Origin: Saccharopolyspora aridisoli | GTDB lineage: Bacteria; Actinomycetota; Actinomycetes; Mycobacteriales; Pseudonocardiaceae | Assembly: GCF_004348445.1 (NCBI RefSeq) | Contig: NZ_SMKV01000031.1 | Location: 1 to 64,000 of the forward strand | Length of the DNA stretch: 64,000 bases | Reading direction: 5' to 3' | Shown: one piece after another, positions 23,131 to 33,505 of the stretch | Layout: each line of letters starts with the position of its first letter | Numbering within the stretch: the stretch's first letter is position 1 | Notes under the pieces: model-generated | Seen by the model: only the letters and a program-made list of their open reading frames with translations | Told to the model about the DNA's origin: nothing | Databases searched by the model: none | Position numbers and translations under genes: made by a program

Positions 23131-23916
23131 TCAAGCGATGTCGATGCCTCGTTCTCTGAGCCAGGGCACCGGGTTGATCTTCGTCCCGTCCTCGTGGACC
23201 TCGAAGTGCAGGTGAGGACCGGTCGACTGGCCGCGGTTGCCCATGGTGGCGATCTGCTCGCCGGCTCCGACGCGCTGCCCTTCGTCGGCCACGATCGTGT
23301 TGACGTGACCGTAGACGGTGATCGTGCCGTCGTCGTGCTGCACCCGGACCCACATGCCGAAGCCGCTGGCCGGGCCCGCGTCGACGACCTCGCCAGGTGC
23401 CACCGAGTAGATCGGCGTGCCGATGCTGTTGGCGATGTCGATGCCCATGTGGCTGCTGCCCCAGCGGGAGCCGAAGCCGGAGGTGTACCGGCCTTCGGCA
23501 GGGCTGTGGTAGCCGGCGGCCTTGCGCGCCTCCTCCTCAGCCGCACGCTTCGCCTCGGCCTCGGCTTGCGCGGCCTGGGCGGCCGCTTGGCGGGCGGCCT
23601 CCTCGCGGACGATGCGTTCGGCTTCGATGGCCTTGGCCTTGGCGAGCTCCTGCGCTTCGGGCTGCTGTTCGGGCACTTGGGCCTTGAGCAGCCGGACTGC
23701 TGCGGGGCTGTTCTGAGTGCCGGTGATCGCGGTGCTCAGGTTCTTCTTCCCGGCCAGGGGCCGGACGTCGCGCTGCTGGTCGGAGCCCGCGTTCGCGGCC
23801 AGGGGCTGACCCACTGCCGCGAACGCGCCTCCGGCCACCACCGCAGCCACGACCTTGCTGCGGAGCGGAAGGCCGGCTGTCGGGGGGAGCCGGTCTTCCT
23901 TGCGATGCTTGCCCAT
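23131..23916 (-). CDS. Secreted M23 (LytM-type) endopeptidase
   Basis: This 261-residue cell-wall hydrolase is likely to cut peptidoglycan cross-bridges or to activate other hydrolases. A signal/anchor segment is at about 20-45 (VVAAVVAGGAFAAVG). An Ala/Glu-rich coiled-coil spacer lies at about 85-135. The C-terminal peptidase M23 domain has the zinc ligands HMGID and HLHFEVH and the His in GHVN, so it looks catalytically complete. I chose the ATG at 23916 with GGAAGG upstream; a GTG directly before it is possible. The long 5' region holds several CCGTGAC repeats. Confidence 0.9.
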   Translation of the reverse strand: MGKHRKEDRLPPTAGLPLRSKVVAAVVAGGAFAAVGQPLAANAGSDQQRDVRPLAGKKNLSTAITGTQNSPAAVRLLKAQVPEQQPEAQELAKAKAIEAERIVREEAARQAAAQAAQAEAEAKRAAEEEARKAAGYHSPAEGRYTSGFGSRWGSSHMGIDIANSIGTPIYSVAPGEVVDAGPASGFGMWVRVQHDDGTITVYGHVNTIVADEGQRVGAGEQIATMGNRGQSTGPHLHFEVHEDGTKINPVPWLRERGIDIA

Positions 23917-24457
23917 CACTGCCTTCCGTCGGGTGTCGGTCCGGCCACTCCCGCGTTCGGGGTGCGGGCACGAGCTCCTCGGGGAAAGAGATCTTGTCGT
24001 GATCGAGCCGTGACGTGCAGATCAGAACGTAGCTGACAGTCACGGCAGGCTGCAACTGATGACTCGCCCAGCAGATGGTTCACCCATCTGCGCCGCACGG
24101 CCCGTGACTTTCCGTGACTGACTGAGATCGGCGTTCGATAACATCAACAGCCGGAACCAACTTGCGGAGGAGCCGTTTTCGGCAACCGGATCACGCCGCC
24201 GGCAACTCCGTGATTCGAACGATCCGCGCAGGTCAAAAGGTTGATCAAGGGTAGATCACCAAGGCGCGCAACGGCCGTCAGGCCAACTACCAGCAGGTGG
24301 ATCATCCACAATGGACAGCACTGGCCCGGAGCCCGACCGAGGCCAACTCGGCCGAATGGTGGCCTTCGACACAGGCCACCCTCGATCGGCCCAGAGATCC
24401 CTCCCGCACTCTGGGAGGCGCTGCCACTCGAGCGCGGGATCTGTTTGACTGTCCCCC
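23917..24457. other. Long intergenic region with hairpins upstream of the M23 gene
   Basis: No gene is supported in this 541-bp stretch. It contains an 8-bp inverted repeat (GCCGTGAC at 24007-24014 with GTCACGGC at 24039-24046), a hairpin GCAGATGG-TTCAC-CCATCTGC (24071-24091), and two direct CCGTGACT copies (24102-24109, 24112-24119). These lie 90-200 bp upstream of the M23 start and may be operator or leader elements. The part from 24240 to 24457 shows nothing clear. Confidence 0.45.
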
Positions 24458-24550
24458 ATGACGCCCGGTGATCAGTGGCGGCTGCTGTCGCAGCGCCTCC
24501 ACGTCGACCTGCGCCGCGTCACCTCAGCACGGTGTCGGCGCTCGCGCTAG
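24458..24550 (+). CDS. Cysteine-type leader peptide before the TSUP gene
   Basis: The 30-codon frame starts with ATG at 24458 and ends with TAG at 24548. It contains LLSQRLHVDLRRVTSARC, which matches the HVDL.RV.SA.C pattern of the putative leader peptides found upstream of sulfur-metabolism genes in actinomycetes. In those systems slow translation at the C-terminal Cys codon is thought to raise expression of the genes downstream. Here the next gene (24647) is a TauE/SafE transporter, a fitting target. No strong ribosome site is seen before the ATG, so the message may be leaderless. Confidence 0.7.
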   Translation: MTPGDQWRLLSQRLHVDLRRVTSARCRRSR

Positions 24551-24646
24551 TCCCTAGTCGCGCCCACCTGTTCGAAGCACCATCCCCGCCACGAGCCCTC
24601 GCGCCGCGAACTCGTCGCGTCTCGGATCTTCCCGTACGGAGACATC

Positions 24647-25552
24647 GTGCAAGCATTCCTGATCTTCGCGATCGGCGGTTTCATCGCGCAGCTGGTCGAC
24701 GGCTCGCTCGGCATGGCCTACGGCGTCACCTCGACGACCATCCTGCTGACCGCCGGGCTCACGCCTGCGCTGGCCTCCGCCTCGGTGCACCTCGCCGAGA
24801 TCGGAACCTCGGTCGCCTCCGGCCTCTCGCACTGGAGGTTCGGCAACGTCGACTGGAAGATCGTGCTCACACTGGGCGTGCCGGGCGCGGTCGGCGCCTT
24901 CCTCGGCGCGACCGCGCTGAGCAACGTCTCCACCGAAGCCGCCGAGCCCTGGATGTCGACCATCCTGCTCGCGCTGGGCGTCTACGTGCTGCTGCGCTTC
25001 GCCATCCGGCCGCTGCGCCGCCGCCAGCTCACCGGTGTCAGCTCCAAGCTGCTGGCTCCGCTGGGCCTGGTCGCCGGGTTCGTGGACGCCACCGGCGGTG
25101 GCGGCTGGGGCCCGGTCGCGACGCCCACGCTGCTGAGCACCGGCAAGGTCGAGCCGCGCAAGGTCGTCGGTTCGGTCGACACCAGCGAGTTCCTGATCGC
25201 GGTGGCGGCGAGCCTGGGCTTCCTGTTCTCGCTGGCCGACCAGGAGCTGTCCTGGATGACCGTGGGCGGGCTGCTGCTGGGCGGCGTGCTCGCCGCGCCG
25301 CTGGCCGCCTACCTGGTCCGGGTCGTGCCGATGCGGCTGATCGGCGTCGGCGCCGGCGGGCTCATCGTGCTGACCAACGCGCGCACGTTGATCAAGGCGT
25401 TCGACCTGCCCGCCCCGGCGCCCGCGGTGATCTACGGAGCGATCGTCGTGACCTGGGTCGCCGCGCTTGCCTACACCATTCGGGTGATCGTCAACGAGCG
25501 CCGCGAGATCGACGACTTCGAGGAAGAGGCCCCGGCCACGGCCCAGGGCTGA
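24647..25552 (+). CDS. TSUP-family (TauE/SafE) sulfur-compound transporter
   Basis: This 301-residue membrane protein has about eight transmembrane segments. It contains the family signature GGFIAQLVDGSLGMAYG in the first half and its partial repeat VAGFVDATGGGGWGPV in the second, the internal duplication typical of TauE/SafE. Family members move sulfite, sulfonates or related anions across the membrane; the direction cannot be read from sequence. It starts with GTG after a GGAG. The cysteine-type leader upstream suggests expression when cysteine is low, which favours uptake. A UDP-sulfoquinovose synthase gene, which consumes sulfite, lies immediately beyond. Confidence 0.88.
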   Translation: MQAFLIFAIGGFIAQLVDGSLGMAYGVTSTTILLTAGLTPALASASVHLAEIGTSVASGLSHWRFGNVDWKIVLTLGVPGAVGAFLGATALSNVSTEAAEPWMSTILLALGVYVLLRFAIRPLRRRQLTGVSSKLLAPLGLVAGFVDATGGGGWGPVATPTLLSTGKVEPRKVVGSVDTSEFLIAVAASLGFLFSLADQELSWMTVGGLLLGGVLAAPLAAYLVRVVPMRLIGVGAGGLIVLTNARTLIKAFDLPAPAPAVIYGAIVVTWVAALAYTIRVIVNERREIDDFEEEAPATAQG

Positions 25553-25783
25553 GCAGGCACGGGACGGTCGCCGCCCCCTTATTCGACTCGCACGGGGGAC
25601 GCGGCGTTCCGTCGGGTTTGGGAGGGAAACCGTCCGCTTGCCCGGATCCGAGCACGCGGGGGTGATCGTTAACCAACGTTCACAGCGGGTTCGAGATCTA
25701 CCCACGTGCCGTATCGTCGGGATCATCCGCGAGGGCTAGTGTTCGGAGCTGCCGCGTGGAAGCCCCCCGACACGCGGTAAGGA

Positions 25784-25807
25784 GCCCCGGGCCGAACAGC
25801 CCGGGGC
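25784..25807. terminator. Hairpin between TSUP and SQD1-like genes
   Basis: GCCCCGGGC (25784-25792) and its complement (25799-25807) form a 9-bp stem with a 6-nt loop. It lies 23 bp after the stop of the minus-strand SQD1-like gene and can serve the convergent TSUP gene as well. Confidence 0.65.
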
Positions 25808-25830
25808 ACCCCTTCTGGATCCGCTCCTCG

Positions 25831-27060
<1,230 letters not shown>

Positions 27061-27141
27061 TCAACACTCCAAGAAGACCACGCACAGCGAGCGGTATCGT
27101 TCCGCACAGCACACTTGCGCATGAATTCCTGTGGAGGACAC

Positions 27142-27600
27142 GTGGCGCAGCCGATGATCACCGGCCGTGCTCGCTACTGGCGGTTGATCAGCCGGTTCGC
27201 AGCGGCATCGGTCGTGGCCACCGGCATGAGCCAGCTCGTGTTCCTGCTGTCCTACTCGCTCGGAGCCACACCGGTCGTCTCGACCGTGCTGGCCTGGTTG
27301 GCCGGCGCGATCCCGAACTTCACCCTCAACCGTCGCACCTGGGGCGGCGGTGGGCGCGATGCGCTGCGCGGTGAGCTCCTGCGCTACGGCGCGATCTCGG
27401 TCGGAACGGCGCTGCTGGCCGCGGGCGCCACCCACCTCGCCGAGAGCGCGGCGATCTCGGCGTTCCCCGGCACCCGGCCCGCTCAGGTGGCCGTGGTGTG
27501 GGGTGCCTTCATCGGGACCTACGCGGTGATGTTCGTGATCAAGTTCGTGCTGATCGACAAGTTCGTGTTCAATCGCCGACCGCGGCAGGACGCTCGCTGA
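27142..27600 (+). CDS. GtrA-family flippase-like membrane protein
   Basis: The product is a 152-residue protein with four transmembrane segments and the GtrA layout (FAAASVVATGMSQLVFLL at the start, IPNFTLNRRTWG, and the C-terminal KFVLIDKFVFNRR). GtrA proteins are thought to flip polyprenyl-phosphate sugars made by a GT2 enzyme. The GTG at 27142 has GGAGG five bases upstream. It is divergent from the SQD1-like gene, with 141 bp between starts. It overlaps the convergent GT-C/GT2 gene by 32 bp. With that gene it completes the three parts of a Gtr-type glycosylation system. Confidence 0.87.
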   Translation: MAQPMITGRARYWRLISRFAAASVVATGMSQLVFLLSYSLGATPVVSTVLAWLAGAIPNFTLNRRTWGGGGRDALRGELLRYGAISVGTALLAAGATHLAESAAISAFPGTRPAQVAVVWGAFIGTYAVMFVIKFVLIDKFVFNRRPRQDAR

Positions 27601-29854
27601 CCCGCTCCACCGCCGGGGCGCCCGCGCGACCGGTGCTGCGGCGCTCGCGCCACCACGTTCCGAGCACGACCTCGGCGTAGCGGTAGCCGTAGCTGAAGCT
27701 GGAGCCCTTCTTGCTCTTGCCCGCTGTGCGCTGCAACATCCGCATCGGCTGCTCCAGCGCGCGGTAGCCGTGGCTGAGCAGGCCCACCAGCAGCTCGGAG
27801 GACTGGTACTGCGGCTGCCGCAAGGTCACCGAGTTCGGCACCTCCACCCGCATGCCGCGGAAGCCGAAGGAGGTGTCGGTGATCCGCTGCCGGGTCAGGG
27901 CGCTGACCACCCACGCGAACACGTAGGTGCCGATGCGGCGGATCAGCGCCGGGCGCTCGTTGCTGCCCAGCCGCCGCGAGCCGCTGACGAAGTCCGCGCG
28001 GCCCTCGATCAGCGGTTCCAGCAGCTTCGGCAGCTCGGAGATGTCGTACTGGCCGTCGGCGTCGGTGGTGATCACGTAGCGCGCGCCGCGCTGCGCGGCC
28101 AGCCGGTAGCCCAGCCGCAGCGCCGCGCCCTGGCCCCGGTTGTTCGGCGCCACGCAGGTGTGGGCGCCGTGCTCCAGCGACACCTCGGCGGTGCGGTCCT
28201 TGGCGCCGTCGACGACCACGAGGGTGTCGACGTCCAGGCCGCAGCTGCGGTCCGGGATGGCGTCGATCACCTCGCCGATCGACTCCTCCTCGTTGTAGGC
28301 GGCGATCAGCACGACCACCGGCGCGAACCGGTGCTCGCTGTAGCGGGACGCGTACTCCTCCAGCGCGTCCCGGTCCACCTCGTCGGGGAAGGTCGTCAAC
28401 ATCTGGCACTCCTCGGAGGGCGTGGATCGGGGTGTGGAGCGGACGGCCTCAGGACGGCCGAAGATCGCGGTAGCGCCCAGCGCGCCGGCGAGCGGGATGA
28501 GCACGAGTCCGGGCAACTGGTAGCGCCAGGAGAATTCCATGACCGAAGCGGTCAGCAGCGAGGTCGTCACCAGACCGGCGGGCAGCAGCGTCACCGCGCG
28601 CAGCCCGCTGCGCCTGGCCCGTCCCGCGCCCAGCACCGCCGCGGTCGCGAGCAGCAGCGCGCCGCCGAGCAGCAGGCCAGGGGTGTAGCCGCCGCCGAGC
28701 TGGTAGCCGCGCAGGAACGAGGTGAGTTCCGGATCCGCGCGCAACCCGACGCCGTCGTAGAGCTCGGCCCACTCCTGCGCGTACCAGTCGGGCGCGTACA
28801 TCGGGTGGTCGAGCTGGAACTGCCAGCGGTCCAGCGGCACGTCGCCGACCGCCTGGGTGCGGGTGGGGGCGAAGCCCTTGAGGAAGTCGCCGACGACGCC
28901 CACAGCGATGTCCAGCGGCTGGTTGAGCACGACCTCCCGGGTCAGCGACCGCTGCGCCGCGTTGACGTCCATGCCCTCGGGCAGCAGCTTGTCGACGTTG
29001 GCCTGGACGTCCCAGAGGTGCAGGTAGAAGTCGATGCCGATCTTCTCGCGGCGCTCGCGCGGCTCGTCGGGGCACAGCAGCTGCTCTTCGCGCGTCAGGT
29101 CGAGCTCATCGCAGTTCGCCACGACCGCCGCGCGCCCGAACAGCACTCCCCCGCCTCCGGATCCGCCGACGCCGAACTTCCCCGCGACCAGCGCGCCGTA
29201 GAGCGCGTAGACCAGGACCAGCGCGCCGAACCCGGCGACGAGCGCACCGGCGGCCACCAGCCGGGGCCGCCAGCCCTCGCGCGGGCGCAAACCAGCGGCC
29301 AGCAGCACGAACACCGCAGCGGGCAGCACCAGCGTCAAGCCCACCGAGCGCACCATCACCGACAGCGCCAGCACGCCACCGGCCGCAGCGGCGACCTTCG
29401 GCGTCGGTGGGCCCCACCAGCACAGCAGGTACACGGCGACCAGCAGCAGCACCTGGAACAGCAGGTCGGACATGATCAGCTGCTCGATCTGCAGCTGGTA
29501 GGCGTCCAACAGCACCGGCGCGGCGGCAAGCGCAGCCAGCCACTCGCGGACGCCGAAGCGGCGCAGCAGCACGTAGACGCCGATGCCCAGGCCGATGCCG
29601 AGCAGGTGCTGCACGACCGCGACCCCGGCCAGTCCACCGATGCCCAGCAGCGGCCACAGGAACCACTCGTATCCGACCGGGTTGATGCCGCCGGGGTGGA
29701 ACACGCCGACGTCGTCGAGGTAGCGGAACGAGTCGATGTAGAGCAGTGCGGGCCGGTAGGCGAGCTGCGTGATGATCCGCAGCACCAGTCCAGCGAGCAC
29801 CAGCAGCGCCAGCAGCCAGTGCCGGCGCAGTGCGCCAGTGAGCGCGGCCGTCAC
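27569..29854 (-). CDS. Fused GT-C membrane glycosyltransferase and GT2 polyprenyl-phosphate glycosyltransferase
   Basis: The 761-residue product joins two enzymes. Residues 1 to about 480 form a multi-span GT-C-type transferase that uses a lipid-linked sugar, with acidic residues in its first outer loop (YIDSFRYLDD) and about 10-12 hydrophobic segments. Residues from about 485 on form a GT2 domain of the DPM/GtrB type, with LIAAYNEEESIGE, VVVDGAKDRT and the DxD-like TTDADGQYD. No stop codon separates them. However, an ATG at 28402 with GAGGAG six bases before it could also start the GT2 part alone. GtrB enzymes normally carry C-terminal membrane spans; this one has none, so the fusion may supply the anchor. 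The gene starts at a GTG overlapping the epimerase stop by 4 bp. Confidence 0.82.
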   Translation of the reverse strand: MTAALTGALRRHWLLALLVLAGLVLRIITQLAYRPALLYIDSFRYLDDVGVFHPGGINPVGYEWFLWPLLGIGGLAGVAVVQHLLGIGLGIGVYVLLRRFGVREWLAALAAAPVLLDAYQLQIEQLIMSDLLFQVLLLVAVYLLCWWGPPTPKVAAAAGGVLALSVMVRSVGLTLVLPAAVFVLLAAGLRPREGWRPRLVAAGALVAGFGALVLVYALYGALVAGKFGVGGSGGGGVLFGRAAVVANCDELDLTREEQLLCPDEPRERREKIGIDFYLHLWDVQANVDKLLPEGMDVNAAQRSLTREVVLNQPLDIAVGVVGDFLKGFAPTRTQAVGDVPLDRWQFQLDHPMYAPDWYAQEWAELYDGVGLRADPELTSFLRGYQLGGGYTPGLLLGGALLLATAAVLGAGRARRSGLRAVTLLPAGLVTTSLLTASVMEFSWRYQLPGLVLIPLAGALGATAIFGRPEAVRSTPRSTPSEECQMLTTFPDEVDRDALEEYASRYSEHRFAPVVVLIAAYNEEESIGEVIDAIPDRSCGLDVDTLVVVDGAKDRTAEVSLEHGAHTCVAPNNRGQGAALRLGYRLAAQRGARYVITTDADGQYDISELPKLLEPLIEGRADFVSGSRRLGSNERPALIRRIGTYVFAWVVSALTRQRITDTSFGFRGMRVEVPNSVTLRQPQYQSSELLVGLLSHGYRALEQPMRMLQRTAGKSKKGSSFSYGYRYAEVVLGTWWRERRSTGRAGAPAVERVSERPAAVGD

Positions 29855-30798
29855 CGCGCTCCGCTGGTGAAGTCCGCCCAGACGGTGCGCAGACCGTCGG
29901 TCAGCTCCACCCCCGGCTGGTAGCCGAGCTCGCGCTGCGCCTTCGAGACGTCGACGATCACCGCGGGCATCTCGCCGTTCTTGGCGGGCACGTGGGTGAC
30001 CGGGATGTCGATCTCGGTGGCGGTGCGGACGGCGTCGATGAGCTCCAGGACGGTGATCGAGTCGCCGGAGCCGATCACCGCGGTGCCGGTGTACTGCTTG
30101 TCCCACGCGGCCAGCACGCCCTGCACCACGTCGTCGAGGTGCACGAAGTCGCGCTGCTGCGCGCCGTCGCCGTAGACCTCGACGCCCCCACCGGCCAGCG
30201 CGGCGCGCATCAGGCGCGGCACGAAGCTGTCCTTGTGGCCCATGCCGGGGCCGTAGATGTTGGTGAACCGCAGCGCGCAGGTCGACATCCCGTAGGCGCC
30301 CGCGTACCCGGACAGCAGCATCTCGCAGGCGGCCTTGGTGGCGCCGTAGGGCGTGAGCGGGCGGACCGGCAGCGCCTCGGAGATCGTGCCGTGCCCGATG
30401 TCGCCGACCACCGCGTTGGTGGAGGCGAGGATGAACTGCCCGACCTCGCGCTCGCGGGCCAATTCCAGCAGGTGCTGGGTGACCTCCACGTTGTTGGCAT
30501 AGGTGGCGGCGGGCTGCTCGACCGACTTGAGCACCGAGGTGATCGCGGCCAGGTGGACGATGCCGGCGCTGCCGGGCGCGACGGCGCGGTCCCGCACGTC
30601 GGCGTCGCGCAGGTCGCCCTCCACGAAGCTCACCAGCGGGTCCCGCAGGGACTCTGGCGGGGCCTGGAGGTCGACGATCGTGACCGGGGTGCCGCGCTCG
30701 ATGAACGCTCGGACGACGGCCCGGCCGACGAAGCCGGAGCCGCCGGTCACCACGACCCGGTCGGAGTGGGCGATGTCTGCGGGGGTAGGGCTTGGCAC
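29851..30798 (-). CDS. NAD-dependent sugar epimerase/dehydratase (SDR)
   Basis: This 315-residue extended SDR protein changes a nucleotide sugar. The NAD-binding motif is VVTGGSGFVGRAV. The active-site Ser/Thr region is ASTNAVVG, and the catalytic pair is YGATK. RFTNIYGPGMG and GDGAQQRDFVHLDDV are typical of UDP-glucose 4-epimerase-like proteins. It is the first gene of a two-gene unit with the fused glycosyltransferase, sharing a 4-bp overlap, so its product is probably the sugar, or a companion sugar, used by that enzyme. Specificity cannot be read from sequence. Confidence 0.87.
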   Translation of the reverse strand: MPSPTPADIAHSDRVVVTGGSGFVGRAVVRAFIERGTPVTIVDLQAPPESLRDPLVSFVEGDLRDADVRDRAVAPGSAGIVHLAAITSVLKSVEQPAATYANNVEVTQHLLELAREREVGQFILASTNAVVGDIGHGTISEALPVRPLTPYGATKAACEMLLSGYAGAYGMSTCALRFTNIYGPGMGHKDSFVPRLMRAALAGGGVEVYGDGAQQRDFVHLDDVVQGVLAAWDKQYTGTAVIGSGDSITVLELIDAVRTATEIDIPVTHVPAKNGEMPAVIVDVSKAQRELGYQPGVELTDGLRTVWADFTSGAR

Positions 30799-31434: not shown

Positions 31435-32265
31435 CTAGAACTTGATGCTGGTGAACGCCTTGGTCTGCTCGGTCACGGCTTCTTCTGTAGGGAGCCGTTC
31501 CATGCTGCTGGCGCCGTAGAAGCCGTGGCAGCGATGGGTTTTCGACAGCACGTAGGAGGCGTCGGAGGGCGTAGCGATCGGCCCGCCGTGGCACAGCACC
31601 AGCACGTCCTCGCGGACCTCGGCGGCAGCCTGCGACCACTCGTCGATGAGCCGCACGCAGTCGTCGAGGTCCTTGGCGGTTCCCGCGCCGATCGCGCCAC
31701 CGGTGGTCAGCCCCATGTGGCAGACGATGATGTCGGCGCCCGCCTCGGTCATCACCCGCGCGTCGTCGGCGGAGAACACGTAGGGCGTGGTGAGCAGGTC
31801 GGCCTCGCGGGCAGCGGCGACGAGCTCGACCTCCAGGCCGTAGCCCATCCCCGTCTCCTCCAGGTTGGTCCGGAAGGTGCCATCGATCAGGCCCACGGTC
31901 GGGAAGTTCTGGATGCCCGCGAAGCCGAGATCGCGCAGTTCGCGCAGGAAGTGCTCGCGCAGCATGAACGGGTCGGTTCCGTTGACCCCGGCCAGCACGG
32001 GCGTGCGCTGCACGACCGGCAGCACCTCGCGGGCCATCTCGACCACGATGTCGTTGGCGTTGCCGTACGCCAGCAGTCCGGCCAGCGAACCGCGTCCGGC
32101 CATCCGGTAGCGCCCGGAGTTGTAGATGACGATCAGGTCGATGCCGCCGGCTTCCTCGCACTTGGCGGACAGCCCGGTGCCGGCGCCTCCGCCGACGATC
32201 GGTTCGCCGCGCTGGGCCTTGGCGTGGAGCTCGCGGAGCAGCTCCGCGCGGTCGAATCCGTTCAT
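31435..32265 (-). CDS. PEP-hydrolase-like TIM-barrel protein (Tm-1 C-terminal type)
   Basis: The 276-residue TIM-barrel protein is of the phosphoenolpyruvate hydrolase-like family ([19 protein letters not shown] near the start, [26 protein letters not shown]). The same fold forms the C-terminal half of the tomato Tm-1 protein, while the gene directly upstream encodes the N-terminal half type. GGAGGGG lies before the ATG at 32265; the open frame beyond it is not conserved. It follows the UPF0261 gene by 13 nt, so the two are co-translated. The enzymatic role of this pair in bacteria is not established. Confidence 0.83.
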
Positions 32266-32278
32266 CGCCCCTCCAGTG

Positions 32279-33505
32279 TCAGTGCCGGGACGCCTTTCGG
32301 GTCCCGTGGTTTCCCTGCTCCTCCAGGATTTCACGGAACGCGGTCAGCAGCGCCGTGACGAACTCCTCGTCGTTGACGTTGTGGCCCACTCGCAGCACTC
32401 GGCGGTTCTCGGTCTGCTCGACCTCGCGCTCGATGGTGTCGAAGAGCGCGGTGTCGGCTTCGGGGTCGTGGAACGGCTGGCCCGGCGCGTCCAACATGGA
32501 CACTCCGCCGGTCGGCAGCAGGAAGCGGACCGGGCCGTGGCAGGCGTTGAGCTTGCGCGCGATGAACGAGCCGATCTCCCGGCACTCCTGCGCAGTGGTG
32601 CGCATCAGGGTGACCTGCGGGTTGTGCACGTAGAGGACGCGGTCGCGGTAGCGCTGCGGAACCGATTCCAGCGCACCGAAGTTCACCATGTCCAGCGCAC
32701 CGCACGAGCCGACGTAGGGGACCCGGGTGCGCGCGATGGCGTCGAGCCGCTGCTCGCCCGCGCTCATCACGCCACCGGCGATGAGGTCGCACACCTCGGT
32801 GGTGGTGATGTCCAGGACCGCGCGCACCAGGCCGTCGTCGACGAGCTTCTCCATGGCCCGGCCGCCCGTTCCGGTCGCGTGGAAGACCAGCGGGTCGAAC
32901 TCGGCGGTGAGCGCGTCGGCGGTGGCGGTCACGCAGGGCGTGGTGACGCCGAACATCGACAGCGCCACCGCGGGCTTGTCCTCGACGTGCGGCACCGGGC
33001 GGCTGATCGCGCCGAGCAGCGCGTGCGCGGCGTTGGCGAGGACGCGGCGGGAGATCCGGTTCAGCCCGGCGACGTCGGTGACCGACGGGAACATCGCGAT
33101 GTCGGTGGCGTCGACGTAGCCGGACACGTCACCGGAGGCCACAGTGGACACCACCACCTTCGGCACGCCCACCGGCAGTTCCCGCATCCCGGGGGTGACC
33201 AGCGCGGTTCCGCCGGAACCGCCGAGCCCGATGACACCGTCGACGTCGCGCTCCCGCAGGAAGTGCGCGAACGCCGTGGCCATCGCGCTGACGGCCGTGC
33301 CCCGGTCACCGGTGAACACCGCATCCGCGCCGTCCGGGTGGTGCGCGGCGACCTCGGCCGCCTGGACGACGGCGCTGGACGAGCCTTCGCCGGTGGTCGA
33401 CAGGTCGACGGTGACGACGGGATGCCCGCGGGCGATGAGCTCGGCGACGTAGTCCAGTTCCGCGCCCTTGGTGTCGAACGTGCCAGCGACGTACGCGCTG
33501 CCCAT
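32279..33505 (-). CDS. Tm-1-like ATP-binding protein, UPF0261 family
   Basis: This 408-residue protein matches UPF0261/Tm-1-like ATP-binding proteins. The N-terminal Rossmann-like part contains [18 protein letters not shown] and [11 protein letters not shown]. Later blocks include [24 protein letters not shown] and [11 protein letters not shown]. It is encoded directly ahead of a PEP-hydrolase-like TIM-barrel protein; plants and some fungi have the two as one chain (Tm-1). The pair probably forms one complex acting on a small metabolite. No reaction has been firmly assigned. Confidence 0.85.

Follow-up and report, generated by a model that had tools for sequence, protein, structure and literature searches.

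The stretch of DNA analysed here, hereafter the window, is the first 64,000 nucleotides of contig NZ_SMKV01000031.1 from the actinobacterium Saccharopolyspora aridisoli (assembly GCF_004348445.1; genome 6.0 Mb). An initial annotation had marked positions 24458-30798 as a candidate locus for surface glycosylation with sulfoquinovose, and all the genes that it named are found there: an SQD1-type uridine diphosphate (UDP)-sulfoquinovose synthase, a GtrA-family membrane protein, a frame that joins a polytopic membrane part to a glycosyltransferase family 2 (GT2) domain, a sugar epimerase, and a TSUP anion transporter (Table 1). The right boundary coincides with the outer end of the epimerase gene, whereas the left one had been set too far out, since the TSUP frame begins at 24647. 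On the minus strand the order from right to left is GalE-like epimerase, polytopic/GT2 fusion and SQD1, and in the sequence GTGA the fusion's GTG start codon overlaps the stop codon of the epimerase. The GtrA gene sits between the fusion and SQD1, and the gene ends of GtrA and the fusion share a 32-base overlap. The longest open reading frame (ORF) for GtrA, with a start at 27034, is probably over-extended, and SQD1 starts either at 27048 or at an inner GTG at 27000.

Table 1. Genes and domains of the locus, in window coordinates
Feature	Positions	Strand	Evidence and remarks
TSUP (TauE/SafE) anion transporter	24647-25552	+	PF01925, 134 bits; neighbour, judged outside the module
SQD1-type UDP-sulfoquinovose synthase	25831-27048	-	60% identity to 1i24; Thr/Tyr/Lys triad kept
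GtrA-family membrane protein, proposed lipid-linked sugar carrier	about 27142-27600	+	PF04138, 36.4 bits vs cut-off 26.1
Polytopic/GT2 fusion	27569-29854	-	One frame, 761 residues, GT2 part C-terminal
GT2 domain, polyprenyl-phosphate sugar synthase type	27569-28399	-	PF00535, 71 bits
Polytopic N-terminal part of fusion, probable GT-C transferase	28400-29854	-	PF02366/PF13231 in aligned members
GalE-like NAD-dependent epimerase	29851-30798	-	PF01370, 190 bits; first gene of the run epimerase to fusion

The window SQD1 and its S. endophytica counterpart share 99% identity, and 229 of 381 aligned residues (60%) are identical to the crystallised Arabidopsis SQD1 (Protein Data Bank, PDB, entry 1i24; E 1.6e-160). 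Thr145, Tyr182 and Lys186 of 1i24 correspond to Thr160, Tyr197 and Lys201 in the window protein, and this triad is invariant across 108 SQD1-like sequences, some of them duplicates. Both motifs quoted in the initial annotation are exact, and its description of a gene with intact SQD1 hallmarks stands. Agl3 is inactivated by alanine at His95, Arg101, Met145, Tyr182 or Lys186, while T144A is still active (PMC4388408). Matched by eye, without an aligned Agl3 sequence, His111 and Arg116 of the window protein would correspond to His95 and Arg101 of Agl3, and among the 108 sequences the His is found in 108, the Arg in 106 and the Met in 105. On NCBIfam model NF041015 the window protein scores 469.5 bits, under the equivalog cut-off of 575, which is a curated threshold and not a biochemical feature, and this cut-off does not separate because Arabidopsis SQD1 itself scores 485. 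A UDP-sulfoquinovose synthase annotation in Saccharopolyspora is not new, since SACE_5690 of S. erythraea has already been named among these enzymes (PMC4388408).

The partner genes belong to broader families. The NCBIfam models nearest to the GT2 domain are dolichyl-phosphate hexose transferase (100 bits), PpgS and AglJ, all under their cut-offs; in the PDB it matches dolichol-phosphate mannose synthase (5mlz, 1.2e-9), and it is also similar to undecaprenyl-phosphate sugar transferases. The epimerase reaches 159 bits on TIGR01179 (cut-off 262). Since the whole window genome holds eight GtrA-family matches, membership in this family alone is not specific.

Conservation of the neighbourhood was assessed in 81 loci, namely the window and the best 80 of 552 SQD1 relatives from a scan of named genomes, and neighbours were counted within 7 kb of SQD1. 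A GT2 related to the window's is present in 79 of the 81 loci, GtrA and a GalE-like epimerase in 76 each, and a homologue of the polytopic half in 66 (55 fused to GT2, 11 separate); for GtrA, a profile search on six-frame ORFs recovered several genes that the codon-usage gene caller had missed. Several of the absences concern loci on short contigs or at the end of a contig (L032, L065), and the two loci without GT2 (L045, L066) come from Pseudonocardiales metagenome-assembled genomes (MAGs) and have a different gene context. In three loci (L121, L123, L124) SQD1 and a GT2 stand together with no epimerase nearby. Close co-occurrence of SQD1, GtrA and the GT2 or fusion extends over Pseudonocardiales, Kribbella, Nonomuraea/Actinomadura, Streptomyces humicola and Actinospica; the initial annotation had named a lack of such co-occurrence as a ground for refuting its reading, and this ground does not hold. 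Other recurrent neighbours are confined to a single genus or related genera (for example 21-23 Saccharopolyspora-Actinopolyspora loci, or 16 of Kribbella), with wider recurrence for a short-chain dehydrogenase family (28 loci), and no second conserved transferase is found among the recurrent neighbours of the 81 loci. Fifteen loci are without the homologous GT-C, and the GT2 is mostly retained there; in those read, other polytopic genes lie nearby that have no Pfam match (e.g. L039, L042). This pattern would fit a cassette in which the choice of acceptor lies with the GT-C.

The TSUP gene had been proposed as the part of the locus that imports or balances sulfite. It occurs in 14 of the 81 loci, all of them Saccharopolyspora or Halosaccharopolyspora, and it is convergent to SQD1, and on these grounds it was rejected as the sulfite transporter of the locus.

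In a family sample of 200 genomes including the window's (SQD1 at E<=1e-60, GT2 domain at E<=1e-50), SQD1 is present in 82 and GT2 in 78; 75 genomes have both, seven SQD1 only, three GT2 only and 115 neither, a table on which a Fisher test ignores relatedness. The two genes lie 524-1483 bp apart in 70 of the 75 genomes with both. Within the window's genus, six genomes have both (the window's included) and five have neither. Five of the SQD1-only genomes were examined (G109 and G158 were left out): G011 has a cut-off GT2 and GtrA at a contig end (L149), G057, G126 and G142 have a different gene context (L141-L143), and in G082 no GT2 is present in the stretch fetched (L144). The polytopic half is found in 81 of the 200 genomes, in some of them in multiple copies, and is less specific than the GT2. 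A class sample of 394 genomes, with a few members in common with the family sample, has SQD1 in 19 and GT2 in 12; both occur in 11, 443-1384 bp apart, and in the twelfth GT2 genome (G329, 86% complete) a fragment of SQD1 lies at a contig end (L136). One GT2 match, in G356, has one stop inside. The gene set is thus no chance neighbourhood.

A further link between SQD1 and its partners comes from an SQD1 tree of 62 rows, built by a quick method without bootstraps, in which two clades are separated by a long branch (L135, L124, L129, L130 and the plant row are themselves long branches whose positions are unsure). L137 and L138 have SQD1s of the distant type, which share 45-47% identity with that of the window. 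Their GT2s fall within a Prauserella/Saccharomonospora set of five (Shimodaira-Hasegawa-like approximate likelihood ratio test, SH-aLRT, 98), and the other three loci of this set carry the near SQD1 type. In L137 and L138, a member of the distant subfamily has taken over the position of the near SQD1 among partner genes that were retained. Moreover, G018 has the module without an adjoining SQD1 (L140), and an SQD1 of the distant type is found some 205 kb away (L139). Grouping with L137-L139 in the SQD1 tree (98) are two proteins (L133:7938-9953, minus strand; L134:7230-9206, plus strand) in which a single frame holds a 3'-phosphoadenosine-5'-phosphosulfate (PAPS) reductase (CysH) domain and an SQD1 domain; the reductase part matches PF01507 at 1.3e-38 and 2.6e-39, respectively, and passes the PRK02090 cut-off in L134. 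By its domains, this fusion joins a predicted sulfite maker to a predicted sulfite user, and because its members are near relatives, the distant SQD1 type can be linked to sulfite. A cysH gene is present elsewhere in the window genome. The simplest reading is that the module would need UDP-sulfoquinovose whichever SQD1 supplies it.

In the three-component scheme of glycan modification, a polyprenyl-phosphate sugar synthase and a GtrA-type flippase candidate act with a GT-C transferase that modifies the glycan outside (PMC11127046, PMC7389260). Given what was computed, that is, the enzyme families, the intact SQD1 catalytic residues, the conserved adjacency, the co-occurrence and the SQD1 replacement in place, we consider it probable that the locus is a dedicated Gtr-like module of this kind for a sulfonated sugar, sulfoquinovose or a derivative. 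For the GT2 substrate, flipping by GtrA, GT-C activity, the epimerase and the acceptor we infer the following. SQD1 would convert UDP-glucose and sulfite to UDP-sulfoquinovose, and the epimerase may convert this, or a partner sugar, to its C4 epimer. At the inner membrane face, the GT2 domain would move the sugar from UDP to polyprenyl phosphate, GtrA would let the lipid-linked sugar cross the membrane, and the GT-C domain, here fused to the GT2, would transfer it to a glycan outside the cell, an acceptor that may differ among lineages. The core of this reading, in which UDP-sulfoquinovose would be put onto a lipid carrier and attached beyond the membrane instead of going into a sulfolipid, is well supported by comparative evidence; of the interpretation first offered for the locus, the lipid-carrier glycosylation core is thereby supported and the role of the TSUP transporter is not.

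The final sugar may not be sulfoquinovose itself. The epimerase and the occasional methyltransferase leave room for an epimer or a methylated form. A bolder version, which we put forward tentatively and regard as somewhat improbable, is that the loci make a widespread and hitherto undescribed class of sulfonated surface glycans of Gram-positive actinobacteria whose sugar is the C4 epimer 6-deoxy-6-sulfo-galactose ("sulfofucose"), made by the GalE-like enzyme, carried singly on polyprenyl phosphate and O-methylated in some lineages. If so, both the activated sugar and its lipid-linked donor form would be new. A gene for an S-adenosylmethionine (SAM)-dependent methyltransferase lies near SQD1 in 12 of the 81 loci, and in L042 (11188-11934) it overlaps the SQD1 end; these genes hint that some lineages methylate the sugar.

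Several observations weigh against a dedicated sulfonated-sugar module. The neighbour counts used profiles built from the 81 loci themselves, and these loci are mostly near relatives because the best-scoring ones were kept. In the family sample, SQD1 and GT2 are non-adjacent in 5 of the 75 genomes with both (G018 and G168, which were read, and G002, G048 and G056, which were left out), and three genomes have the GT2 without SQD1: in G103 the contig starts just beyond GtrA (L146), and in the 90%-complete drafts G121 and G191 no SQD1 is present in the stretches fetched (L147, L148). The polytopic half occurs without an SQD1 match in these three and in G001 and G047. This half is probably a GT-C transferase; on its own the window protein has a sub-threshold Pfam PMT match (E 0.0024), it has no match in the PDB at E up to 1, and in a family search with E up to 1 (37 members, being 36 of the 54 fused orthologues listed and the window) PF02366 (PMT) was found in 29 of 37 and PF13231 (PMT_2) in 20 of 37, all weakly (best 2e-7). 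Hence, of the GT2/GT-C fusion initially described, the single frame and the GT2 domain are confirmed, and the GT-C half is indicated by weak matches. In addition, the GT2 and GtrA families as such handle a wide range of sugars, and conservation of the epimerase in most loci leaves room for another sugar being carried.

One may argue that the sugar added by the epimerase, GT2, GtrA and GT-C is an ordinary hexose, and that the UDP-sulfoquinovose from SQD1 goes to another transferase, which modifies the same envelope glycan. The GalE-like character of the epimerase and its presence in 76 of the 81 loci would fit, as would the nearest GT2 models, which are for ordinary hexoses and N-acetylgalactosamine. 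Nevertheless, we judge this unlikely: the locus has no further conserved transferase, SQD1 and a GT2 stand together without a nearby epimerase in L121, L123 and L124, SQD1 and GT2 are gained or lost jointly, and SQD1 is replaced in place. It is also conceivable that the SQD1-like enzyme yields another product, such as UDP-glucose-5,6-ene, which Agl3 gives without a sulfur donor (PMC4388408), or a different 6-modified sugar. This seems quite unlikely to us, as the checked residues are the same as in SQD1 and near relatives of the SQD1 type that can stand in at the module are joined to PAPS reductase, which points to sulfite; the shortfall on NF041015, which could be held in its favour, is shared by the Arabidopsis enzyme.

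The remaining alternative, that SQD1 makes ordinary sulfolipid (sulfoquinovosyl diacylglycerol, SQDG) beside unrelated glycosylation genes, has in its favour that UDP-sulfoquinovose usually ends up in SQDG (PMC12890257). Glycosyltransferase family 4 (GT4) genes do adjoin SQD1 in three class-sample loci (L119, L128, L129). At the window locus there is no SQD2/SqdX-type GT4 partner. With the actinobacterial GT4 of G420 as query, the SQD1-linked GT4s of G573 and G429 are 50% and 47% identical, compared with 35% for the best match in the window genome, 34% for the second copies in G420, G429 and G573, and 36% in G145, which has no SQD1. No close homologue of the SQD1-linked GT4 was thus found in the window genome, in a homology search that is blind to a non-homologous lipid transferase; the initial report of no sulfolipid synthase agrees with this. 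As the neighbour genes are moreover conserved with SQD1, a simple sulfolipid locus, in contrast to L119, L128 and L129, was judged very unlikely.

The preferred reading, a dedicated sulfonated-sugar module, covers only part of actinobacterial SQD1. Among the 19 class-sample genomes with SQD1, 11 have the module-type GT2; in G285 SQD1 occurs with a GT2 of lower similarity (40%), a gene for a PF03706 protein and two further polytopic genes, in G420, G429 and G573 with a GT4, in G540 and G563 as the PAPS-reductase fusion, and in G477 with a processive-type GT2, and the SQD1 of G589 is very divergent. The GT4 start in G420, G429 and G573 resembles what we take to be SqdX, a label applied without comparison to an authentic SqdX. 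Judged by sequence, actinobacteria put SQD1 to several uses, of which the module is one, and there is no sign of the GT4 use in the window genome.

Other contexts stand on their own. In L141 (4700-14012), SQD1 is transcribed away from genes for CysH, CysD and CysN, and after it come genes for an HlyD-like protein, a PgaC-like processive GT2 and a glucoamylase-like protein; gene order is similar in L142 and L143 (families were scanned in L141). This looks like a sulfoquinovose exopolysaccharide locus. In L045 (1063-4888), L145 (2299-6714) and, in pieces, L066, SQD1 lies between the hopanoid C-3 methylase HpnR (837 bits in L045, cut-off 650) and a transferase resembling monogalactosyldiacylglycerol (MGDG) synthase, possibly for a sulfonated glycolipid. 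These HpnR-type loci come from Pseudonocardiales MAGs, and G102 has one together with the module.

Among known systems, the closest match to the module is the three-component type (Shigella GtrA/GtrB/Gtr-type; CsbB/GtcA/YfhO for lipoteichoic acid; Citrobacter pentofuranose). Shared features are the polyprenyl-phosphate sugar synthase, which is a GT2 in the Gtr type, the small GtrA-type protein, the polytopic transferase and their clustering, and the pentofuranose systems likewise have auxiliary epimerases (PMC11127046, PMC7389260). Unlike these systems, the module has a UDP-sulfoquinovose synthase joined in, its GT2 and GT-C are fused in 55 of 81 loci, and its proposed sugar is sulfonated. The Agl3 pathway of Sulfolobus, for sulfoquinovose in archaeal N-glycans, also has a UDP-sulfoquinovose synthase feeding a surface glycan (PMC4388408), but the module is bacterial and of a single-sugar polyprenyl-phosphate type with GtrA; no search for archaeal glycosylation genes was made. 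The sulfolipid pathway of plants, cyanobacteria and other bacteria (SQD1 with SQD2/SqdX) has the synthase in common, whereas its partner is a GT4 acting on diacylglycerol; of the actinobacterial SQD1-linked GT4 the window genome has no close homologue. Mycobacterial capping of lipoarabinomannan with 5-methylthioxylose also adds a sulfur sugar outside, by a GT-C from a decaprenyl-phosphate donor (PMC11127046), although methylthioxylose is a thioether pentose and the sugar proposed here a sulfonate, and the likeness drawn here is one of description.

Few organosulfur compounds are as abundant as sulfoquinovose, which is known as the sulfolipid head group of phototrophs, with exceptions in archaeal N-glycans and a few other bacteria (PMC12890257). 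Among the sulfoquinovose papers listed in our literature searches, judged by titles and abstract openings, we found no description of an actinobacterial SQD1-GtrA-GT2 locus. If a Gtr-like system coupled to UDP-sulfoquinovose synthesis is real, sulfoquinovose exported singly on a polyprenyl carrier would occur in the envelopes of non-photosynthetic soil bacteria, where it would give a strongly acidic, phosphate-free cell surface and a soil source for sulfoquinovose-consuming bacteria, and its lipid-linked sulfonated donor would be directly testable.

Some minor observations complete the picture. PF03706-type membrane proteins stand at GtrA's place in L121 (6968-7927, under the cut-off) and L124 (6412-7428, over the cut-off) and are possibly a non-homologous flippase. 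Contig CAJCJE010000542.1 (L032), filed as Candidatus Melainabacteria, has the actinobacterial module with an SQD1 80% identical to the window's, and is probably misfiled because the same contig recurs as G011 of the window's family. An ARAGORN call for tRNA-Ala(ggc) at 23554-23638 (plus strand) is probably a false positive; it lies antisense inside a predicted gene at 23131-23919 (minus strand) that appears peptidase-like by eye. Lastly, genes for a phosphoenolpyruvate-hydrolase-like protein (PF09370) and a UPF0261 protein lie next to each other at 31435-33505 (minus strand), and each is found in 21 of the 81 loci.

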